Shown one piece after another: positions 4,367 to 53,825 of a stretch of 57,129 nucleotides of DNA (position 1 is its first letter; each line of letters starts with the position of its first letter). The position numbers and the translations under genes are program-made. The notes under the pieces were generated by a model. That model made no database searches and was not told the origin of the DNA. It saw only the letters and a program-made list of their open reading frames with translations. The stretch comes from Desulfobacula sp. (GTDB lineage: Bacteria > Desulfobacterota > Desulfobacteria > Desulfobacterales > Desulfobacteraceae), in contig VMSR01000077.1 of assembly GCA_013792075.1 (NCBI GenBank), positions 1 through 57,129 of the forward strand, given 5' to 3'.

Positions 4367-5695
4367 CTATCTTAAATGGTGTTTTCTGTATTCTTCAACA
4401 TCACGTTCCCAGCCGCCTTCAACCTCATCTTCTTTCCAGAAGATATAGGGGTTGGTTCTCGGGTATTGTACGTGCTGTGGCATTGCCTCGATACCAGTTA
4501 CTTCAAGAAGCTTCTGGAATCCCTGACGCATAATCAGTTCACCAAGTCTTTCACGGTTCTTGCCTTCTTCCATCCACCAATCCCAAACATTTTCAATAAC
4601 TTCTGTGATGGCTTCATAATCATTGTCAGCGTTGACTTCGATAAAGGGAACCAGCAGAGAACCCATCTGGGCACCATCAAGGATGGGGGCCTTTGCACCC
4701 ACCAGAATGGAACAACCGGTTTCTTTACCAATTTTAAGGGCTCGTGGCATTACATTGATACAATGCATGCAGCGGGTACAATTGGCATTGTCAATGAACA
4801 ATTTTTTATTTTTAAACTGCATACAGCGTGTGGGACAAAGACCGGTCACTTCTTTTTCAATGTCAAATGGACCCCAGTCTTTGCTGCCTTTATATGCACC
4901 GGCATTTGCAGGGTAACCATCCGCACATTCAACATATTTATTAACCGCATCCTGATCAATCCGGATATCATCTTTCCAGGTACCGATAAAGGACATGTCA
5001 GACCGTGCAATGGAGGCTACGCAGCAGTTGGGGCAGCCATCCAGTTTGAATTTAAACTTGTAGGGAAATGCAGGTCTATGAAGCTCATCCTGATACTCAT
5101 TGGTCAGAAAGTAAACCAGTGCATTGGTATCATAACATGCATATTCACATCTGGACTGGCCCAGGCAATCGGCAGGTGTTCTCAGGTTGGAACCTGATCC
5201 GCCAAGATCCTGATTCATGTCATGGGTCAATGTGTGGAAGATTTCTTCCAGCTGGGGAGTTGTGGTTCCCAGAAGGATGATATCACCGGTGGCACCATGC
5301 ATATTGGTAACGCCGGAACCTCTGAAATCCCACAGTTTGGTCAGGGCTCTCAGGTAGTCTGTTTTATAGTATTTACCAGCAGGCTGGGCGATACGCATGG
5401 TATGGAAATGCTGTACACCAGGAAACAGTGTCGGCTGATCGCAATATCTGCCGATAACACCACCGCCATAACCGAAAACGCCAACGATACCGCCATGTTT
5501 CCAGTGAGTTCTGCCATGCTTGTAAGAAAGCTCCAGAACGCCCAAAAGATCTTCTACCGCATCCACGGGAATTTGGAATTCAACACCTTCTACATTCTTT
5601 GCTCTTCTTTCAGCCTGGGCTTTCAGGTCTGAGACAAAGCTAGGCCATGGGCCGGATTCCAGCTGGTCCAGTAAAGGAGTCTTATGTTTTGCCAT
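4367..5695 (-). CDS. dsrA: Dissimilatory sulfite reductase alpha subunit
   Basis: A 442-aa alpha subunit of DsrAB. The siroheme-coupled cluster motif CX5C is at Cys177/Cys183 (CLGQSRC) followed by CPNCC (221-225). The ferredoxin domain has Cys287/Cys291 and CTRCMHC (306-312). Together with DsrB it carries out the terminal six-electron (in vivo DsrC-linked) reduction of sulfite. The start is fixed by GGAGGTAAG a few bases upstream. A TTGACA/TATATC promoter lies about 150 bases before the start, leaving an untranslated leader of roughly 140 bases. This is the strongest taxonomic marker in the window. Confidence 0.98.
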   Translation of the reverse strand: MAKHKTPLLDQLESGPWPSFVSDLKAQAERRAKNVEGVEFQIPVDAVEDLLGVLELSYKHGRTHWKHGGIVGVFGYGGGVIGRYCDQPTLFPGVQHFHTMRIAQPAGKYYKTDYLRALTKLWDFRGSGVTNMHGATGDIILLGTTTPQLEEIFHTLTHDMNQDLGGSGSNLRTPADCLGQSRCEYACYDTNALVYFLTNEYQDELHRPAFPYKFKFKLDGCPNCCVASIARSDMSFIGTWKDDIRIDQDAVNKYVECADGYPANAGAYKGSKDWGPFDIEKEVTGLCPTRCMQFKNKKLFIDNANCTRCMHCINVMPRALKIGKETGCSILVGAKAPILDGAQMGSLLVPFIEVNADNDYEAITEVIENVWDWWMEEGKNRERLGELIMRQGFQKLLEVTGIEAMPQHVQYPRTNPYIFWKEDEVEGGWERDVEEYRKHHLR

Positions 5696-46417: not shown

Positions 46418-47644
46418 ATGTCAAAGGGAAAAGTAGTTCTGGCCTATTCAGGCGGACTGGACACCTCGGTTATCTTAAAGTGGCTGCTCGAACAGGGATA
46501 CGAGGTCATTGCTTACATGGCCAACATCGGCCAGCAGGAAGATTTTGATGCGGCCCGGAAAAAAGCATTGCAGATCGGGGCGTCCCAGGTATTTATCGAG
46601 GACATGAAAAAAGAGTTTGTCACGGATTATATTTTTCCGGTGTACAAAGCCAATACCGTCTATGAAGGCCGCTACCTTTTGGGAACGGCCATTGCAAGGC
46701 CCATTATCGCCAAACGCCAGATTGAAATTGCCAAGGAAGTGGGCGCCCAGTTTGTTTCCCACGGGGCCACAGGCAAAGGAAATGACCAGGTGCGGTTTGA
46801 GCTGTCCTATTATTCCTTAAACCCCCAGATCAAGGTCATTGCGCCCTGGAAAAACAAGGAATTTCTCAACGCCTTCAAGGGCCGGACCGATCTATTGGCC
46901 TATGCCGAAAAACACGGAATCCCCACCAAACAGTCTGCATCCAAACCCTATAGCGAGGATGACAACCTGCTCCACATTTCCCATGAAGCAGGGATATTGG
47001 AAGATCCGGGCCATGTGTGCGACGAAAGCATCTATTCCCACACCGTCTCCCCGGAAAATGCGCCGGACAAGGCCACCCGAATCATATTGGAATTCAAGGA
47101 CGGCATTCCCGTAAAGGTCACCAACCTGGAAGACAATACCGTGAAAACAGATCCCCTGGAATTGTTTGAATATCTGAACCAGCTGGGACGGGAAAATGGG
47201 ATCGGTCGTCTGGACATGGTGGAAAACCGGTTTGTGGGCATCAAGTCACGGGGGGTCTATGAAACACCCGGCGGCACCATCCTCCATGAAGCCCACAAGG
47301 ACATTGAAGGCATTGCCATGGACCGGGAAGTCATGCGGATAAGGGACATGCTGGCAGGCAAATATGCGGAACTTGTCTACAACGGGTTCTGGTTCAGCCC
47401 GGAAATGGAATTTCTCATGGCTGCCATGGACAAGAGCCAGGAGGTCATTGACGGCGAAGTCACCCTGAAGCTTTACAAGGGAGTTGCCTACCCCATTGCA
47501 AGGACTAGCCCGTCTTCCCTGTACAATCAGGATCTTTCCTCAATGGATATTGCAGGCGGTTACAACCAGGAAGATGCCGAAGGGTTCATTAAAATCAATG
47601 CCATTCGGCTCATGGCCCACAGAAAGATTATCGACAAAAAATAA
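46418..47644 (+). CDS. argG: Argininosuccinate synthase
   Basis: A 408-aa enzyme that joins citrulline and aspartate with ATP in arginine synthesis. The PP-loop ATP site AYSGGLDTS is at residues 9-17, and [15 protein letters not shown] and [18 protein letters not shown] are typical. Length is normal for the type 1 enzyme. AAGGAG precedes the start. The putative ArgR operators upstream indicate arginine repression. Confidence 0.96.
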
Positions 47645-47731: not shown

Positions 47732-47742
47732 GCCACAGTCTT

Positions 47743-48225
47743 TTAACGGCCGGCAATGGGTTCCACAAACCGGGCTTCGGAATCCCAGGGGAACAGAATC
47801 CAGGTGTCCTGGCTCACCTCGGTCACATGGGCATCCACCAGGGGTTTGCCGGCAGGTTTCGCATAAACCGTTGCAAAATAGGCTTTGGGAAGCATACGCC
47901 TGACCACCTTTGCCGTGGAGCCTGTATCCACAAGGTCGTCAATAATGAGCAGGCCCTCTCCGTCCCCTTCTATCCCTTTGAGAATGGTTGCTTCCCCCTG
48001 GTTCTGCCCGTCATAACTTGTGATACAAACCGTATCAATGTGGTGAATCCCCAGCTCCCTTGCAATAATGGCCGCCGGGACAAGTCCCCCCCGGGTGATG
48101 GCAACAATGCCTTTCCACGGCGTTTCCCGGTCATGGAGCCGCCATGACAATGCCTTGGCATCCCGGTGGAGCTGGTCCCAGGAAATGGGGTAACTTCTCG
48201 TATATCGATCTTTTGTTTTATCCAT
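47743..48225 (-). CDS. gpt: Xanthine-guanine phosphoribosyltransferase
   Basis: A 160-aa purine salvage enzyme. It shows [10 protein letters not shown], the PRPP-binding [17 protein letters not shown], and the C-terminal WILFPWD, which together are specific for Gpt-type XGPRT. It converts xanthine and guanine with PRPP to their nucleotides, near the membrane in E. coli. It is a single gene, convergent with argG. Confidence 0.93.
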
Positions 48226-48250
48226 AGGTGTTTGGGCCTCCTTGGCTGTG

Positions 48251-48310
48251 ACCCTGTAAACAGGGTTGAGGAATTAAGTTTTGACTTTTCATCTGCCTGT
48301 TTTATTTTAT
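48251..48310 (+). promoter_or_regulatory. Possible promoter and hairpin before the selenoprotein gene
   Basis: A hairpin (ACCCTG-TAAA-CAGGGT, 48251-48266) is followed by TTGACT (48281-48286) and, after 18 bases, TTTTAT (48305-48310). The match is moderate. The selenoprotein start lies 37 bases further on. Confidence 0.35.
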
Positions 48311-48346
48311 CTGGCAATAAAAGAAAAGATACAAAGGAAAAATACT

Positions 48347-48529
48347 GTGAATGAAATCAACAATGCCTGCCTTGACTGCGGCGGCAAATTATACATCAAA
48401 AAGACCTGAACAAAGGTAAGTCTGTGCTGCAGGTCCTGCGGCAAAAATTTCCCCCAAGACAAATACAAAGATCTCATGGACGACTATCTTGAAGAGCAGC
48501 TGGCCAATGTGCCGGTGAACAGGCTTTAG
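48347..48529 (+). CDS. Dual-CXXC small selenoprotein with in-frame UGA
   Basis: A 60-codon frame from GTG (48347) to TAG (48527-48529), interrupted only by TGA at 48407-48409 (codon 21). Before it lies NACLDCGGKLYIKKT with Cys8-x2-Cys11; after it TKVSLCCRSCGKNF with Cys28-x2-Cys31, then an acidic helix (DLMDDYLEEQL). The protein reads as one small zinc-ribbon or redox domain with selenocysteine between two CXXC pairs. I recall that a family of dual CXXC motif small (seleno)proteins is known, mainly in anaerobes. A hairpin closely like the fdhF SECIS starts 16 bases after the TGA. AAGGA is eight bases before the GTG. A conventional caller would see two fragments. Confidence 0.85.
48425..48443 (+). 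promoter_or_regulatory. SECIS element for UGA decoding
   Basis: An 8-bp stem (TGCTGCAG pairing with CTGCGGCA, including one G-U pair) closes a GUC loop. The apical part GCAGGTCCTGC is almost the same as GCAGGTCTGC of the E. coli fdhF SECIS, including the GU needed by SelB. It lies inside the coding frame 16 bases after the TGA, within the bacterial range. Confidence 0.8.
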
Positions 48530-48882
48530 CCTGCAGCAACTCAAACTGCAATAAAAAAAGCCTGACCCCATATGAAACCACCCTCATTCCAGCAGATCTG
48601 AAGAGGGTGGCATACCAGATCTTGTGGTCTAAAAATTTTAAAAAACGCAATCAATTACAGGGAGAGTCCGGGGTGATTTTTAAACCCCTAAGGGGGTTGA
48701 CTATAGCCAGAGATTTTATCGTGGCGGCTATGCGAGTTAAATTGAAGGCTCACTCGCCTCCCCGAAATAAATCTCTCAGAAGCGTACCAGTAGTGTTCTC
48801 TTTATTTTTTATATGCAAAAAGTTATATTAATGACATATTTGATAATTGGACTCACTTATCTCAATGACCGGATTAGGATTT
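48530..48882. other. Non-coding region with several hairpins
   Basis: 353 bases with no convincing gene. Perfect stems visible: CCACCCTC/GAGGGTGG near 48583-48611, AACCCC/GGGGTT near 48683-48699, ATAGCC/GGCTAT around 48702-48735, GCGAGT/ACTCGC near 48733-48758, and AGAGATTT/AAATCTCT enclosing the last two. Some stems exclude each other. A structured RNA or the worn end of a mobile element are both possible. Confidence 0.5.
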
Positions 48883-49545
48883 TTATTCGTTTGAAATATT
48901 AAAAGGTTCTCTAAAGACTTTCTCCCAGTCATATAATATCGAAGGGGCTAAAGTACTATATCCATTTGATGTTATTAGGGTAAAATATTTGCACGCAATT
49001 TCATTAAGCAAATCCAATGCATCGTATACATCACCATAAGTTGGTTTATTGATTTGGTTCTTTCGGTCTAGATGCGCAATCCTGATGTCAACAAAATCAC
49101 TAACTGTTTTTGAAATCTGATCTAATTCAAGCATATCATGATGAATTTTTTTTTCTGAAATTATATGATTATCGTCACTAAAATTATTAAAGGTTATTTC
49201 TTGCCAACCGTATTCATTGTTTTCTTTTGGATATATTTGTAGGTAAAAATCGTAAGTGAATTGATTGGAACATTTTTCTATTTGGTTCAATAATTTCATT
49301 AAAGAGATGCTATTATCAATTTTCCGATGGCGTCTAATACAAACTGCTGCGTTTACAATAAAGCTCTCACGGACAAAATCACAAAATAATATGCCGTTAT
49401 TTTTTTTAACGTGTTCAAAATTATGATTTACTATTTCTTCGAAGCGCAGATATATTTGCTTATAATCAACAATTTTTTGCAGATCATCTTTGATCAACTC
49501 ACACCATTTGATCCATTTTTTGAATTCATGTTTGTTTAATCTCAT
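48883..49545 (-). CDS. HEPN (AbiU2-like) protein with degenerate RNase motif
   Basis: A 220-aa helical protein. RRHRKIDNSISLMKLL (71-86) and FVDIRIAHLD (151-160) resemble AbiU2-type HEPN proteins. At the place of the RNase motif (Arg, five residues, His) the arginine is Val152 while His158 stays, so catalysis is doubtful. It lies behind another HEPN gene and starts on the stop of a tiny intervening frame (ATGA) with no ribosome binding site of its own. It may be a binding or neutralising partner of the active HEPN protein. Strongly AT-rich. Confidence 0.65.
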   Translation of the reverse strand: MRLNKHEFKKWIKWCELIKDDLQKIVDYKQIYLRFEEIVNHNFEHVKKNNGILFCDFVRESFIVNAAVCIRRHRKIDNSISLMKLLNQIEKCSNQFTYDFYLQIYPKENNEYGWQEITFNNFSDDNHIISEKKIHHDMLELDQISKTVSDFVDIRIAHLDRKNQINKPTYGDVYDALDLLNEIACKYFTLITSNGYSTLAPSILYDWEKVFREPFNISNE

Positions 49546-49661
49546 TTGTGGATACTATCGATAAATTTTTTTATCCAAAAAGAAGCTTCAAAACTTGAAA
49601 ACAATTTGGAGATGGTTTTTAATTCATATTTGTGAATGTGTTTGTTATAATTTTTTGACAT
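49542..49661 (-). CDS. Tiny 39-aa linking frame between the HEPN genes
   Basis: A basic frame (MSKNYNKHIHKYELKT...) beginning inside the last codons of the intact HEPN gene and ending with an ATGA overlap on the next. It may be translated only to couple the two genes. GGGAG lies 12 bases upstream. No family recognised. Confidence 0.3.
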   Translation of the reverse strand: MSKNYNKHIHKYELKTISKLFSSFEASFWIKKFIDSIHK

Positions 49662-50319
49662 TATCAAGCAATCTCCCAAAATCCCTCTCATAAAAAGCAA
49701 TATCTGGTTTCCGATTTCTAAGTTCTGGTTTTTTACCATTCAAAAAAGTTTCAGATAACGTCACTTTTAGGTCATTTAGAAACCAAATTATTTCTTCCAA
49801 TTCGACAATATTAGTTTCAACCCAAAGATCATTCGCATTATCCAAAAAATTTTTGTCCTTATGAGCAATAATCTTATGACGTATTGGGCGATAAACGTTT
49901 TCAAAAATATTTCTGCGTTTAGATACTTCGCCTCTTAGTTTGCTAAAGTCATTTTCAATCGGCTCGTAAGCATCCTCAATATATTTAGATAGCCAAGCGG
50001 GTTCATTACCATTTTGATCAACCATTTTTCGTATTCGTAAATTTTCTGAACTAAAAATATTAATTTCCTTTATACAACATTTTAAAAGATCATCTACAGA
50101 GAAAGCCTTGGTATCAACATCGAAAATACGACCTAATGTTATAAAGAGAGTCACCTGTAGGGAATGTCTTATAATTATCCAGCTTAAAGGCGTTTTATTG
50201 AGGGCTGCGATGAGTTCTTTTTCAGATGCAATTCTATCTCTTAACATTCTCCAAAAGAAATAAGTTGCAAGAATCTTATGAATTTCATTACTGTATTCAT
50301 GATGATATCTCTCGAACAT
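49645..50319 (-). CDS. HEPN (AbiU2-like) protein with intact RNase motif
   Basis: A 224-aa helical protein. The motif RHKIIAHKDKN holds Arg147 and His153, the Arg-x5-His arrangement of HEPN ribonucleases, and the region before it (KRRNIFENVYRPI) fits AbiU2-like proteins. Such proteins commonly cut RNA in abortive infection or toxin-antitoxin pairs. It is first of a two- or three-gene AT-rich unit. A 26-bp perfect palindrome 30 bases before the start is a likely operator. Function is inferred from family and context only. Confidence 0.7.
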   Translation of the reverse strand: MFERYHHEYSNEIHKILATYFFWRMLRDRIASEKELIAALNKTPLSWIIIRHSLQVTLFITLGRIFDVDTKAFSVDDLLKCCIKEINIFSSENLRIRKMVDQNGNEPAWLSKYIEDAYEPIENDFSKLRGEVSKRRNIFENVYRPIRHKIIAHKDKNFLDNANDLWVETNIVELEEIIWFLNDLKVTLSETFLNGKKPELRNRKPDIAFYERDFGRLLDNVKKL

Positions 50320-50671
50320 TTAATTATCCTTTGACTCTCAAATCTCCTGATTTCATTTGAATTCAAATGAAATCCTACCTGAACCAATTAAACTGTTTAC
50401 ACCTAAACTCGTATCAATATTTAAAATTTGTGTAAAGAGGATTCAATTTTATAGAGAATAAATTGATTGATAACTATACGTCCAGTGTTTTTTTGAAAAT
50501 TTATTGACCCTGACTTTTAGCCAGAAGCAAACACCACAATACCCGACAAAAATCATTCATAACTTGATCAAATTAATTTTCGACATGTAATGAAATCTTA
50601 TAAATTAATCGTAACATTATGTTCGGGGAAAATGAGAGGGTTCGTTCAGATATAGGAGATCTCACATAATT
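50320..50671. other. AT-rich intergenic region with a palindromic operator
   Basis: 352 bases between the HEPN gene and the DUF2971 gene. Apart from the palindrome listed separately I see no coding frame of useful length and no terminator. Confidence 0.6.
50349..50374. promoter_or_regulatory. 26-bp perfect palindrome upstream of the HEPN genes
   Basis: GATTTCATTTGAA is followed directly by its reverse complement, with GAATTC at the centre. It has no loop, which suits a dimeric DNA-binding protein better than an RNA hairpin. It lies 30 bases before the HEPN start, a usual place for an operator. Confidence 0.6.
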
Positions 50672-51535
50672 TTAATAATTTCTGTACGGGACAGATGAAT
50701 CGTATGTAACACAGCCCTTAATTCCTTTGGCATCTATAAACCTATCCAAAGAAGCCTTTGCCAATTTGTTATGCGGAGTTGGGCTGTGATAGATCGAATC
50801 AAACGGATTCTTATGCAAATCAAAAGAGATATATGGAATTAACATTGACTTACCAGCACGAAACTCAATCTCTTCTTGGGTAACGAATAATAAACGCCAT
50901 TCTGCTTCTTCATAAAAAGATTTGTGTTTTAGTAAACCAGCAATTTGAAAAAGCATAAATGACAAATGCTTTATACATTTTAGATTATTCTCTGGTGTAC
51001 CCGTGTTTTTTAATAATTGTTGAGCATCCTCCCTTTGGAACCAGAAATCGATGACATCTTCAATTACCCGTGTTTTGTCTTTTTCTTTGTATTGACATTG
51101 TAACAGCAGGCTTTTTCTCTTTGGTAGGGTCGAATTCCATAATTTAGAAGCATTAAAACCAAGGCAAAAACCTATTCCATTGGAACAATACCCCCTCCAT
51201 TGACTAAGCTGGTCTTCCCTTTCAGAGAATGAACAAACATAAGCTTTTAGTATTCCACTATTTAGGATATTCAAAATCGAATCCATTATGGAATTGTCAC
51301 TTCCTGGAATCTGTATTGAACTAAAATTAATTTTTGATTTTTCTAAAACTTTTTCTATCAATACTTGACCATGAGATAATTCTTCTGAATCATTTAGATA
51401 GTGAATATCTGTTGCCCACATTGAATTCTTATCACTGATACCCAAAAAGCCTTCTTGCGATGTATAATGGTAAATGGTTTTTGGCGGTAATTTTCTATTT
51501 ACTACTTCATTTAAATAGTATTCTATTGTCCCCAT
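50672..51535 (-). CDS. DUF2971 protein
   Basis: A 287-aa protein of the DUF2971 family, found in many defence islands and of unproven function. Marks in order: IYHYTSQEGFLGI near the start, MWATDIHYLNDSEEL, VCSFSEREDQLSQWRGY, and near the C-terminus KHKSFYEEAEWRLLF. The arrangement of conserved polar residues suggests an enzyme. I start at 51535 since GGGAGGG lies eight bases upstream; the longer frame from 51574 lacks one. AT-rich, alone on its transcript. Confidence 0.75.
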   Translation of the reverse strand: MGTIEYYLNEVVNRKLPPKTIYHYTSQEGFLGISDKNSMWATDIHYLNDSEELSHGQVLIEKVLEKSKINFSSIQIPGSDNSIMDSILNILNSGILKAYVCSFSEREDQLSQWRGYCSNGIGFCLGFNASKLWNSTLPKRKSLLLQCQYKEKDKTRVIEDVIDFWFQREDAQQLLKNTGTPENNLKCIKHLSFMLFQIAGLLKHKSFYEEAEWRLLFVTQEEIEFRAGKSMLIPYISFDLHKNPFDSIYHSPTPHNKLAKASLDRFIDAKGIKGCVTYDSSVPYRNY

Positions 51536-51574
51536 GGAGAAACCCTCCCTTCCATTAAGAATAATTATTCCCAT

Positions 51575-51895
51575 AAATTGTCATACGATAACAGTATTGT
51601 AAACAGCCTTATGGCATTTCTCTGCGTCACTACCAAAAAAACAATATTTTTGTATAAATCACACTCTGGACTTTGTCTATAACGAAACTCCCCAAACGCC
51701 TGTGTAGCGTGGCAGGCAATCTAGCATATTTAAAATTTTGACTTTAGACAAAAAGCAACTCAATATATGAGTTTACTTTCTGCTCAATAATTTTTAATAC
51801 TTCATTTCATTTGGTCTGGTATTTGCTTTGAAAGTTTAATTAGATAATTACTTGGCAACTTTTTTGGCATTGCAATTAATATAAAGGAACAATTT
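51575..51895. other. AT-rich intergenic region
   Basis: About 320 bases between the divergent DUF2971 and pentapeptide genes. A weak promoter (TTGGCA with ATTAAT after 17 bases) lies shortly before the pentapeptide gene. No other feature seen. Confidence 0.4.
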
Positions 51896-52384
51896 ATGAG
51901 CCGGTTTTCTAAACTTTTCTTATTGGTGATTTGTCTCTCTCTTTTTTGCACTGTCACCGCATTTGATCAGTCCTCGTTATTAAGGTTAAAAACAACAAAT
52001 CAATGTCCTTCCTGCGGCCTGTACGGTGCCGACCTGTCCGGTGCCAAGCTGTCCGGTGCCAAGCTATCCCATGCCAACCTGTCCCATGCCAACCTGTCCG
52101 GTGCCAACCTGTCTGGTGCCGACCTGTCCGGTGCGAACGTTTCCGGTGCGAACCTTTCCGGTGCCAACCTGTACGCTGCAAACCTGACCGGTGCCAACCT
52201 GTCTGGTGCGAACCTGTCCGGTGCCGACTTGTCCCATGCCAATCTGACCGGTGCCAACCTGACCGATGCCAATCTGACCGGTGCCATCCTGCCCGGAGCC
52301 AACCTGTACGCTGCCAACCTGACCGGTGCAACTTGGCCTAACGGTTGCAAGTGTGTTGACAGAAAGGGTTCAAACTGTAAATAA
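51896..52384 (+). CDS. Exported pentapeptide repeat protein
   Basis: A 162-aa protein with a signal peptide (SKLFLLVICLSLFCTVTA, residues 5-22). Residues 43-145 hold about twenty tandem pentapeptides of the A(N/D)LSG type, which form a right-handed quadrilateral beta helix. CPSC lies before the helix, and three cysteines follow it (GCKCVDRKGSNC), probably disulfide-bonded caps in the periplasm. AAGGAAC precedes the ATG. Cytoplasmic relatives mimic DNA (Qnr), but the export signal argues against that role. Confidence 0.88.
   Translation: MSRFSKLFLLVICLSLFCTVTAFDQSSLLRLKTTNQCPSCGLYGADLSGAKLSGAKLSHANLSHANLSGANLSGADLSGANVSGANLSGANLYAANLTGANLSGANLSGADLSHANLTGANLTDANLTGAILPGANLYAANLTGATWPNGCKCVDRKGSNCK
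52025..52330 (+). repeat. 15-bp tandem repeat array in the pentapeptide gene
   Basis: About twenty units of the 15-base type GCCAACCTGTCCGGT, with a few base changes each. Recent homogenisation or slippage is likely because third codon positions are also conserved. Confidence 0.8.
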
Positions 52385-52412
52385 ATTGAAAAATTGAGCG
52401 ATAACCGGGATA

Positions 52413-52431
52413 GGCAGGCCAGTGGCCTGCC
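52413..52431 (+). terminator. Probable terminator of the pentapeptide gene
   Basis: GGCAGGCC pairs perfectly with GGCCTGCC around a 3-base loop (AGT), about 30 bases after the stop. The T-run after it is weak (GGGTTTATGG). Confidence 0.5.
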
Positions 52432-52625
52432 GGGTTTATGGTTAAAATTATAACCACAACTTTTTTTTACTTGCCTCTGATTTTTCTATCTTTCCAGATC
52501 TGTCATGGTGCTTTTTCCAGGAATCTGTATCTGTTAATTGCCTTTTTTCCCTGTTAATCTGACGGACAAAATCACACCCAGTCAATGGGAAAACATCCGT
52601 ATTACAGGGGAAAAGGGAGGAAAAA

Positions 52626-53825
52626 ATGGACTATAAATGCCTTCTGGCAGACAGAACAAACCGCATGCAGGCCAATGCCATCCGGGAAATCTTAAAAGTG
52701 GTTGCCACCCCCGGCATCATCTCCCTGGCAGGCGGTATCCCCTCCCCTGAAAGTTTTCCCATGGACATCATCCGGACCCTTACCCAGCAGGTGCTGGAAA
52801 AATATAAATCCAGCGCCTTCCAATATGACCTGACCGAAGGGTTTTTGCCGTTAAGAGAGCAGATATCCATTCTCCTTGGGGCAAGGGGGATCAACATCCT
52901 GCCCGATGCCGTCAATATCACTTCGGGTTCCCAGGGCGTCCTGGACGCCATTGCCAAACTGACCATATCAAAAGGGGACAAGATCGCCCTGGAATCTCCC
53001 ACCTACCTGGGCGCACTGTCGGCTTTCAACCCCTATGAACCCTGTTATATCCCCATGGAGATGGACGATGAAGGGCTTGTTCCAGAATCCCTGGAACTTG
53101 TCCTGAAAACCCATGTGATTAAATTTATATATCTTGTCCCCACCTTTCAGAACCCCACGGGCCGGAGCCTGACCCTGGAAAGGCGGATCAAGATTGCCGA
53201 CATCATCCAGCGACACAATGTGCTGCTGGTGGAAGATGACCCCTATTCTTCCCTTCGCTACAAGGGAGATCCGGTGCCGGCCATCAAAACCCTTGCCCCG
53301 GACCATGTCATCTATATTTCCACCCTTTCCAAGGTGTTTGCGCCTGGGCTGCGCATCGGATTTTACGCAGCCCCTAAATTTATTCGGGAATGGCTTGTCC
53401 TGGTCAAGCAGGGGGTGGACCTTCACACCTCCACCTTTAACCAGGCCCTGGCAGCCGAATACCTTGCGGGCAAACACATGGACGCCCACCTTCCCCGGAT
53501 CATCGACATCTATAAACCCCGGCAAAGGGCCATGACAGATGCCCTGGAGCGCATGCTGCCCCAAGGGTTTTCCTGTGCACCTTCCGACGGGGGTATGTTT
53601 TTATGGGTATCCGGCCCCAAAGGATTTAATGCCCTGTCCCTCTATGACAAAGCCATCGAAAAAGGGGTGGCCTTTGTTCCGGGACATTTTTTTTATACCG
53701 ACCCCGAACAGGGTCTTGAAACCATGCGCCTCAATTACACCATGGCCGATGTTGCCACCATTGAAATTGCCGTTGAAAAGCTTTGTGATGCCATCCGGGA
53801 CATGCAACGCCGGGAAAAAAAATAA
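52626..53825 (+). CDS. PLP-dependent aminotransferase (class I/II, LysN/2-aminoadipate type)
   Basis: A 399-aa fold-type I aminotransferase. It shows ISLAGGIPSPESFP at the N-terminus, TSGSQGVLDAI, VPTFQNPTGRSL, VEDDPYSSLRY and the PLP lysine in YISTLSKVFAPGLRIGF. The pattern fits the MocR-like/2-aminoadipate aminotransferase group without a DNA-binding domain. Substrate could be a branched-chain, aromatic or aminoadipate-type amino acid. GGGAGG precedes the ATG. It converges on the flavodoxin gene. Confidence 0.92.
   Translation: MDYKCLLADRTNRMQANAIREILKVVATPGIISLAGGIPSPESFPMDIIRTLTQQVLEKYKSSAFQYDLTEGFLPLREQISILLGARGINILPDAVNITSGSQGVLDAIAKLTISKGDKIALESPTYLGALSAFNPYEPCYIPMEMDDEGLVPESLELVLKTHVIKFIYLVPTFQNPTGRSLTLERRIKIADIIQRHNVLLVEDDPYSSLRYKGDPVPAIKTLAPDHVIYISTLSKVFAPGLRIGFYAAPKFIREWLVLVKQGVDLHTSTFNQALAAEYLAGKHMDAHLPRIIDIYKPRQRAMTDALERMLPQGFSCAPSDGGMFLWVSGPKGFNALSLYDKAIEKGVAFVPGHFFYTDPEQGLETMRLNYTMADVATIEIAVEKLCDAIRDMQRREKK

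Follow-up and report, generated by a model that had tools for sequence, protein, structure and literature searches.

Small proteins that carry selenocysteine (Sec) between two CXXC motifs are already known as a family, held in NCBIfam as NF041197, "dual CXXC motif small (seleno)protein", a model that belongs to the set by which NCBI names proteins. In the excerpts of a 2026 review (PMC13188914) this model has two entries: 'Dual CXXC motif small protein (hypothetical protein OS_HP3), NF041197, RxU', credited there to a 2007 paper (Nucleic Acids Research) on a symbiont of the worm Olavius algarvensis, and 'hypothetical protein DW, NF041197, GxU', from deep-Sep (2025). As far as the published excerpts go, OS_HP3 was missed by deep-Sep in one genome. 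The two branches are not named consistently: SMF39960.1 appears as OS_HP3 in the excerpts of a 2022 review (PMC9312934) and as protein DW in those of the 2026 review (PMC13188914). A literature search for the function of the NF041197 family found none.

The gene described here is one more member of this catalogued selenoprotein family. Its product matches NF041197 with 76 bits against a cut-off of 40, over positions 1-53 of the 53 of the profile and over residues 8-60 of the protein, straight across the TGA; in Pfam nothing exceeded the cut-offs for the protein. The original prediction, made from the letters of the DNA, held that standard annotation would lose the gene. This no longer applies: the curated model covers the protein well over its cut-off, and the family is already in print (PMC13188914, PMC12013277, PMC9312934, each as represented by its excerpts).

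The gene and its homologues

The gene lies in a window (the whole stretch of DNA analysed) of 57,129 nucleotides, and its parts and surroundings are collected in Table 1. As had been predicted, translation with TGA read as U gives a frame of 60 codons in which this TGA is the sole break, with a Cys-x2-Cys pair on each side of it and a stem-loop after it inside the frame. The stem begins 15 bases after the TGA.

Table 1. Positions of the selenoprotein gene, its parts and its neighbours in the window
Feature	Position	Strand	Basis and remarks
argG	46418-47644	+	over cut-off; neighbour conserved in closest relatives
Xanthine phosphoribosyltransferase gene, divergent	47743-48225	-	over cut-off; neighbour conserved in closest relatives
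AAGGA, likely ribosome-binding site	48334-48338	+	8 bases 5′ of the GTG start; judged from the sequence
Selenoprotein gene, 60 residues, NF041197 member	48347-48529	+	GTG start, TAG stop (48527-48529), TGA read as U
First CXXC pair, residues 8-11	48368-48379	+	translation, homologue alignment
TGA, probable selenocysteine, residue 21	48407-48409	+	TGA in 77, Cys in 22 of 99 scorable loci
Putative SECIS hairpin with a stem of 8 bp and the loop GUC (48433-48435) at its apex	48425-48443	+	folding and homologue comparison
Second CXXC pair, residues 28-31, overlapping the hairpin	48428-48439	+	translation, homologue alignment
Weaker AbiU2-like protein	48883-49545		under cut-off
HEPN_AbiU2 protein	49645-50319
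DUF2971 protein	50672-51574
Pentapeptide-repeat protein	51896-52384		repeats
PLP aminotransferase-like gene	52626-53825	+	family matches under cut-offs

The claim that coding character continues past the TGA is likewise borne out. Among 11 close sequences (the gene studied and 10 relatives, hand-picked for closeness from 36 aligned rows), pN/pS was 0.154 5′ of the TGA and 0.225 in frame 3′ of it, while shifted frames gave 1.06-2.55, the other two frames 3′ of the TGA standing at 1.06 and 2.55. The TGA sits inside one selected reading frame.

The family was found in 112 of 395 genomes sampled from the phylum at E<=0.001, with matches over the cut-off in 88 of the 395, and it was found in none of 14 control genomes. 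From 144 NF041197 matches (counted by hand) 100 were taken for locus analysis: the column of residue 21 holds TGA in 77 and Cys in 22, and one locus is truncated; L129, which is without the first CXXC, was left out of the Sec/Cys counts. The homologues read, in which the original prediction had proposed to look for Cys in place of codon 21, have Sec or Cys at this column and keep their sequence on both sides of it, the four CXXC cysteines and the Sec/Cys position being invariant or nearly so. Seventeen loci lie in genomes named Desulfobacula, Desulfobacteraceae, Desulfobacterales, Desulfatibacillum or Candidatus Desulfaltia, or named only as Deltaproteobacteria. The source genome has one family copy, and 29 of 39 genomes of near relatives, the source genome included, match a profile built from close members. 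In one relative (L168, 4000-4180) the homologue is frame-shifted near a T run, probably through an assembly or sequencing error. The gene studied reads K-T-U at the Sec; over the 57 Sec loci of the same branch the residue two before Sec is R in 42, K in 7 and another in 8, so the RxU motif is not absolute.

The components for Sec synthesis and insertion that the original prediction had named (selA, selB, selC and selD) are present in the source genome as selA, selB and selD, each over its own cut-off in profile searches, and a tRNA-Sec of 76.9 bits, over cut-off. The selD of this genome (L056, G000:C238:23605-24528) has one in-frame TGA, and selenophosphate synthetase is probably itself a selenoprotein here. 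Among the genomes sampled from the phylum selA was found in 359 of 395; it occurs in 110 of the 112 family-bearing genomes vs 249 of the 283 others (Fisher p 0.0007, genomes matched by eye), an excess that is weak evidence because selA is almost universal in the sample. The two family-bearing genomes without selA are MAGs, 79% and 67% complete.

Together with the SECIS-type hairpin described below, the Cys homologues and the Sec machinery indicate that the frame very probably encodes a selenoprotein with Sec between two CXXC pairs, as originally proposed. The comparative evidence strongly supports a real selenoprotein gene rather than a truncated open frame, and the gene almost certainly is a genuine member of the known dual-CXXC family (NF041197, OS_HP3), a judgement that covers identity alone and not the redox function proposed further on.

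The probable SECIS hairpin

In the hairpin, positions 48425-48432 pair with 48436-48443 around the loop GUC, and the label fdhF-like, given to it by the original prediction, agrees with what we take to be the apical sequence of E. coli fdhF. The 48 nt after the TGA fold with -15.8 kcal/mol (z -2.7), an energy reached by 3 of 200 shuffles. Ordinary shuffles overstate the hairpin, since two G-C pairs follow from the coding of a CXXC as TGC..TGC. When the same 8 residues were recoded 5000 times with synonymous codons at local codon usage, the -11.5 kcal/mol of the 24-nt hairpin was equalled in 0.18% of the recodings (mean -2.8); over the whole 48 nt the synonymous control was weaker (z -2.05, p 0.03, 300 recodings). 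The bacterial SECIS model, as given in the excerpts of PMC13188914 (Fig. 2 legend), has a loop of 3-9 nt, an upper stem of 4-16 bp, a G within the first two loop bases, a UGA-to-loop distance of 16-37 nt and an MFE <= -7.5; the hairpin fits it, with a loop of 3, a stem of 8, G first, 23 nt and the energy stated above. An Rfam search of 48200-48700 at E<=5 returned five matches, each to a eukaryotic family and each short of the gathering score of that family.

Close homologues are constrained in the codon whose third base opens the loop and which encodes the residue after the first Cys of the second CXXC. Arg is written AGG in 27 of 27 (frequency in neighbouring genes 0.20, binomial p 2e-19) and Lys is written AAG in 5 of 5 (background 0.30, p 0.002), the remaining 2 of the 34 distinct homologues having GGT and ATG, although these p values overstate independence, the 34 sequences being related. 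The alignment of the 34 leaves out L176 and L183, which duplicate L165 and L167 there, and L168, in which the frame is broken. In it the helix is paired in 87.1% of cells, vs 29.4-54.8% when it is slid by 1-3 columns, and 17 cells are changed on both sides, a number reached by 0 of 500 shuffles; 82 of 500 shuffles reached the count of 4 doubly changed pairs, and 90 of 500 that of 12 further pair types. Pairing is lost at the three outermost positions in 12, 10 and 7 of the 34 close sequences and at the loop-closing one in 6, and the inner six pairs were recovered independently by RNAalifold. The hairpin is conserved beyond coding need.

Across the wider family the SECIS support is modest. A hairpin that conforms to the model at <= -7.5 kcal/mol was found in 68 of 77 Sec loci vs 10 of 22 Cys loci (Fisher p 7e-5). 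At the loop position, 62 of 77 Sec loci and 8 of 22 Cys loci have a G with G or T as the next base (Fisher p 1.5e-4). The whole-region synonymous control was weaker: it gave a mean z of -1.19 for the Sec loci and -0.61 for the Cys loci (Mann-Whitney p 0.03); taken singly, 24 Sec loci of 77 and 3 Cys loci of 22 were at p<0.05. One Sec locus (L108) has no conforming hairpin. Taken as a whole, the sequence evidence strongly supports SECIS-directed decoding of the UGA along the established SelB pathway, by which SelB with Sec-tRNA would bind the hairpin and Sec would be inserted at the UGA to give the 60-residue protein.

Predicted fold and possible function

The AlphaFold model built with 80 sequences (mean pLDDT 76.8) has strands at residues 14-19 and 24-28 and helices at 37-43 and 46-51; a model from 41 rows (pLDDT 66.9) has the same two strands. 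In these models residue 21 falls in the turn that joins the strands, at the far end from both CXXC knuckles. Searches for known folds gave weak matches (Foldseek E>=0.24; the highest VIA Z was 3.8), among them zinc ribbons from topoisomerase I, ATCase and RNA polymerase subunits, and zinc-binding chains such as HypA and YfgJ are among the matches of a profile search. A zinc-ribbon fold is likely, and the models suggest that zinc would likely be held by the two CXXC pairs, whose four cysteines would form one metal site, with Sec21 placed away from it in the inter-strand turn. The original prediction had suggested a redox or metal-binding factor as a possibility. In the turn the selenolate would be exposed, in most cases with Arg or Lys two residues ahead of it, and could act as a redox-reactive group in thiol, polysulfide or electrophile chemistry, and a redox-reactive selenolate carried on a small zinc-ribbon protein is the function that we tentatively propose.

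That the Sec is instead a metal ligand or a purely structural residue of the ribbon, and not a reactive group, appears unlikely. The near-invariance of the Cys/Sec column alongside the four CXXC cysteines would be expected of such a residue, and no thiol partner is fixed elsewhere, a C-terminal Cys occurring in 27 of the 57 Sec loci of the branch. The modelled distance between residue 21 and the CXXC knuckles, however, does not favour it, and the retention of a costly Sec in 77 of 99 loci would argue for chemistry. The C-terminal Cys was itself considered as a general resolving partner of a reactive Sec and was rejected on its partial occurrence and on the Val that stands there in the gene studied.

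The sister branch and the dsr genes

The best functional lead for the family comes from a second set of 22 loci. It has G two residues before Sec in 19 and R in 3, proportions that are partly built in, the set having been sorted by hand-typed motifs. We infer from the motif given in the excerpts of PMC13188914 that this set is protein DW. Six of the 22 loci read, which may not all be independent, lie near dsr genes. In L136, L140, L144, L150 and L152 dsrP is adjacent or one gene off (a model confirmed DsrP in L136, L140, L144 and L150, and clustering assigned it in L152), and in L146 the family member stands beside dsrA and dsrB. The member lies at about 4900-5160 in each of the six, and each of them also has, by clustering, a homologue of a TPR gene and one of a DVU0298-domain gene, the two names coming from L150. 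A link of the G-x-U branch to sulfite reduction is possible. The source genome has a dsrP as well, which fits a sulfate reducer, as the source bacterium probably is. A literature search joining dsr with selenocysteine gave nothing relevant among the matches listed.

A more speculative extension, which we regard as improbable, is that NF041197 proteins at large are Sec-tipped zinc ribbons of dissimilatory sulfur metabolism whose selenolate handles a sulfur intermediate or senses sulfide or the oxidant state. If so, sulfite reduction would have its dedicated partner in the G-x-U branch found next to dsrMKJOP or dsrAB, and the R/K-x-U branch, to which the gene studied belongs, would be a general relative of that branch. 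The role of the family can be tested through the Sec/Cys pair, the constraint on the loop codon and the dsr genes near some of the sister-branch loci.

Gene neighbourhood

Among 36 close rows argG and the divergent xanthine phosphoribosyltransferase gene are neighbours in 13 loci each, a truA-like gene (named by eye) follows in 12, an argJ-like gene (by eye) precedes in 14 and an aminotransferase-like homologue lies directly 3′ of the selenoprotein gene in 7 loci (6 distinct), where each count includes one locus twice (L167/L183 or L165/L176). Only argG, the phosphoribosyltransferase and the dsr proteins were over cut-off among the neighbours, an argR-like and the aminotransferase-like protein being under theirs. 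Across lineages the neighbours vary among the loci listed (fabD, pyrE, truA, argJ, alaS and asd, by eye), and the synteny of the gene's own branch gave no clear function. Seven Cys forms (L086, L087, L089, L092, L093, L095 and L098) directly follow a pyrE-like gene (by eye), and some of them precede a small PilZ-domain protein (confirmed in L089).

In the window about 4 kb (48530-52600) separate the selenoprotein gene from the aminotransferase-like gene, and this segment, with its AbiU2-like, DUF2971 and pentapeptide-repeat genes, looks like an inserted, perhaps defence-related, island. A search of plasmid DNA with 47740-48900 gave 26 records, of which the best 5 of 26 all fall over the phosphoribosyltransferase part.

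The arginine genes invite comparison with the amino-group carriers LysW and ArgW. LysW is about as long and is a zinc ribbon with two CXXC pairs; its acidic C-terminal end of the EDWGE type carries the substrate. The family gives a weak profile match to it (E 0.22), argG is a neighbour of the gene studied, an argR-like gene (its protein under cut-offs) is nearby and argJ, named by eye, stands beside homologues. The arg genes, however, share no operon with the selenoprotein gene, the other lineages have other neighbours (fabD, pyrE, truA and alaS, by eye, among the loci listed), and the C-terminus speaks against a carrier: it is N-R-L in the gene studied, and in the branch mostly D/N-R-L/I, or I-Y-D in 13 Cys loci. 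A LysW-like carrier was rejected on this end, which is not of the acidic glutamate type, and we consider it very improbable.

Just as hard to credit is a regulatory leader, in which decoding of the UGA under selenium would control the downstream gene; the frame is short and the co-directional aminotransferase-like gene comes next in the 7 loci mentioned, but downstream partners differ among lineages (among the loci listed) and selection at the protein level persists past the TGA. An ordinary stop at the TGA, where translation would indeed end at residue 21 if there were no special decoding, leaving a 20-residue peptide and an untranslated or decayed remnant, has next to no likelihood and is already contradicted by purifying selection in frame 3′ of the TGA, by the profile match on through residue 60, by family members with Cys and no stop, and by the TGA at the identical column in 77 of 99 scorable loci.

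Comparison with known systems

The gene is thus best read as a selenoprotein gene, and among described proteins OS_HP3 of NF041197 is like it in the spacing of C-x2-C, Sec/Cys and C-x2-C and in the D/N-R-L type of C-terminus. It differs from OS_HP3 in having K-x-U, whereas the excerpts of PMC13188914 give R-x-U, and in a Val where the C-terminal Cys is frequent. Protein DW shares the dual CXXC with Sec between, and of 5 members scored against NF041197, 4 exceed its cut-off; unlike the gene studied, its set is mostly G-x-U, has another C-terminal half and has the dsr neighbours described above.

A wider likeness is to zinc ribbons such as those of Rpb9-type subunits and topoisomerase I and that of the ATCase regulatory chain, which have the two-knuckle topology predicted for this protein, the matches being weak. 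We know of none among these Rpb9-type, topoisomerase I and ATCase ribbons with a reactive Sec or Cys in the hairpin turn, the place that Sec21 would occupy in the protein studied.
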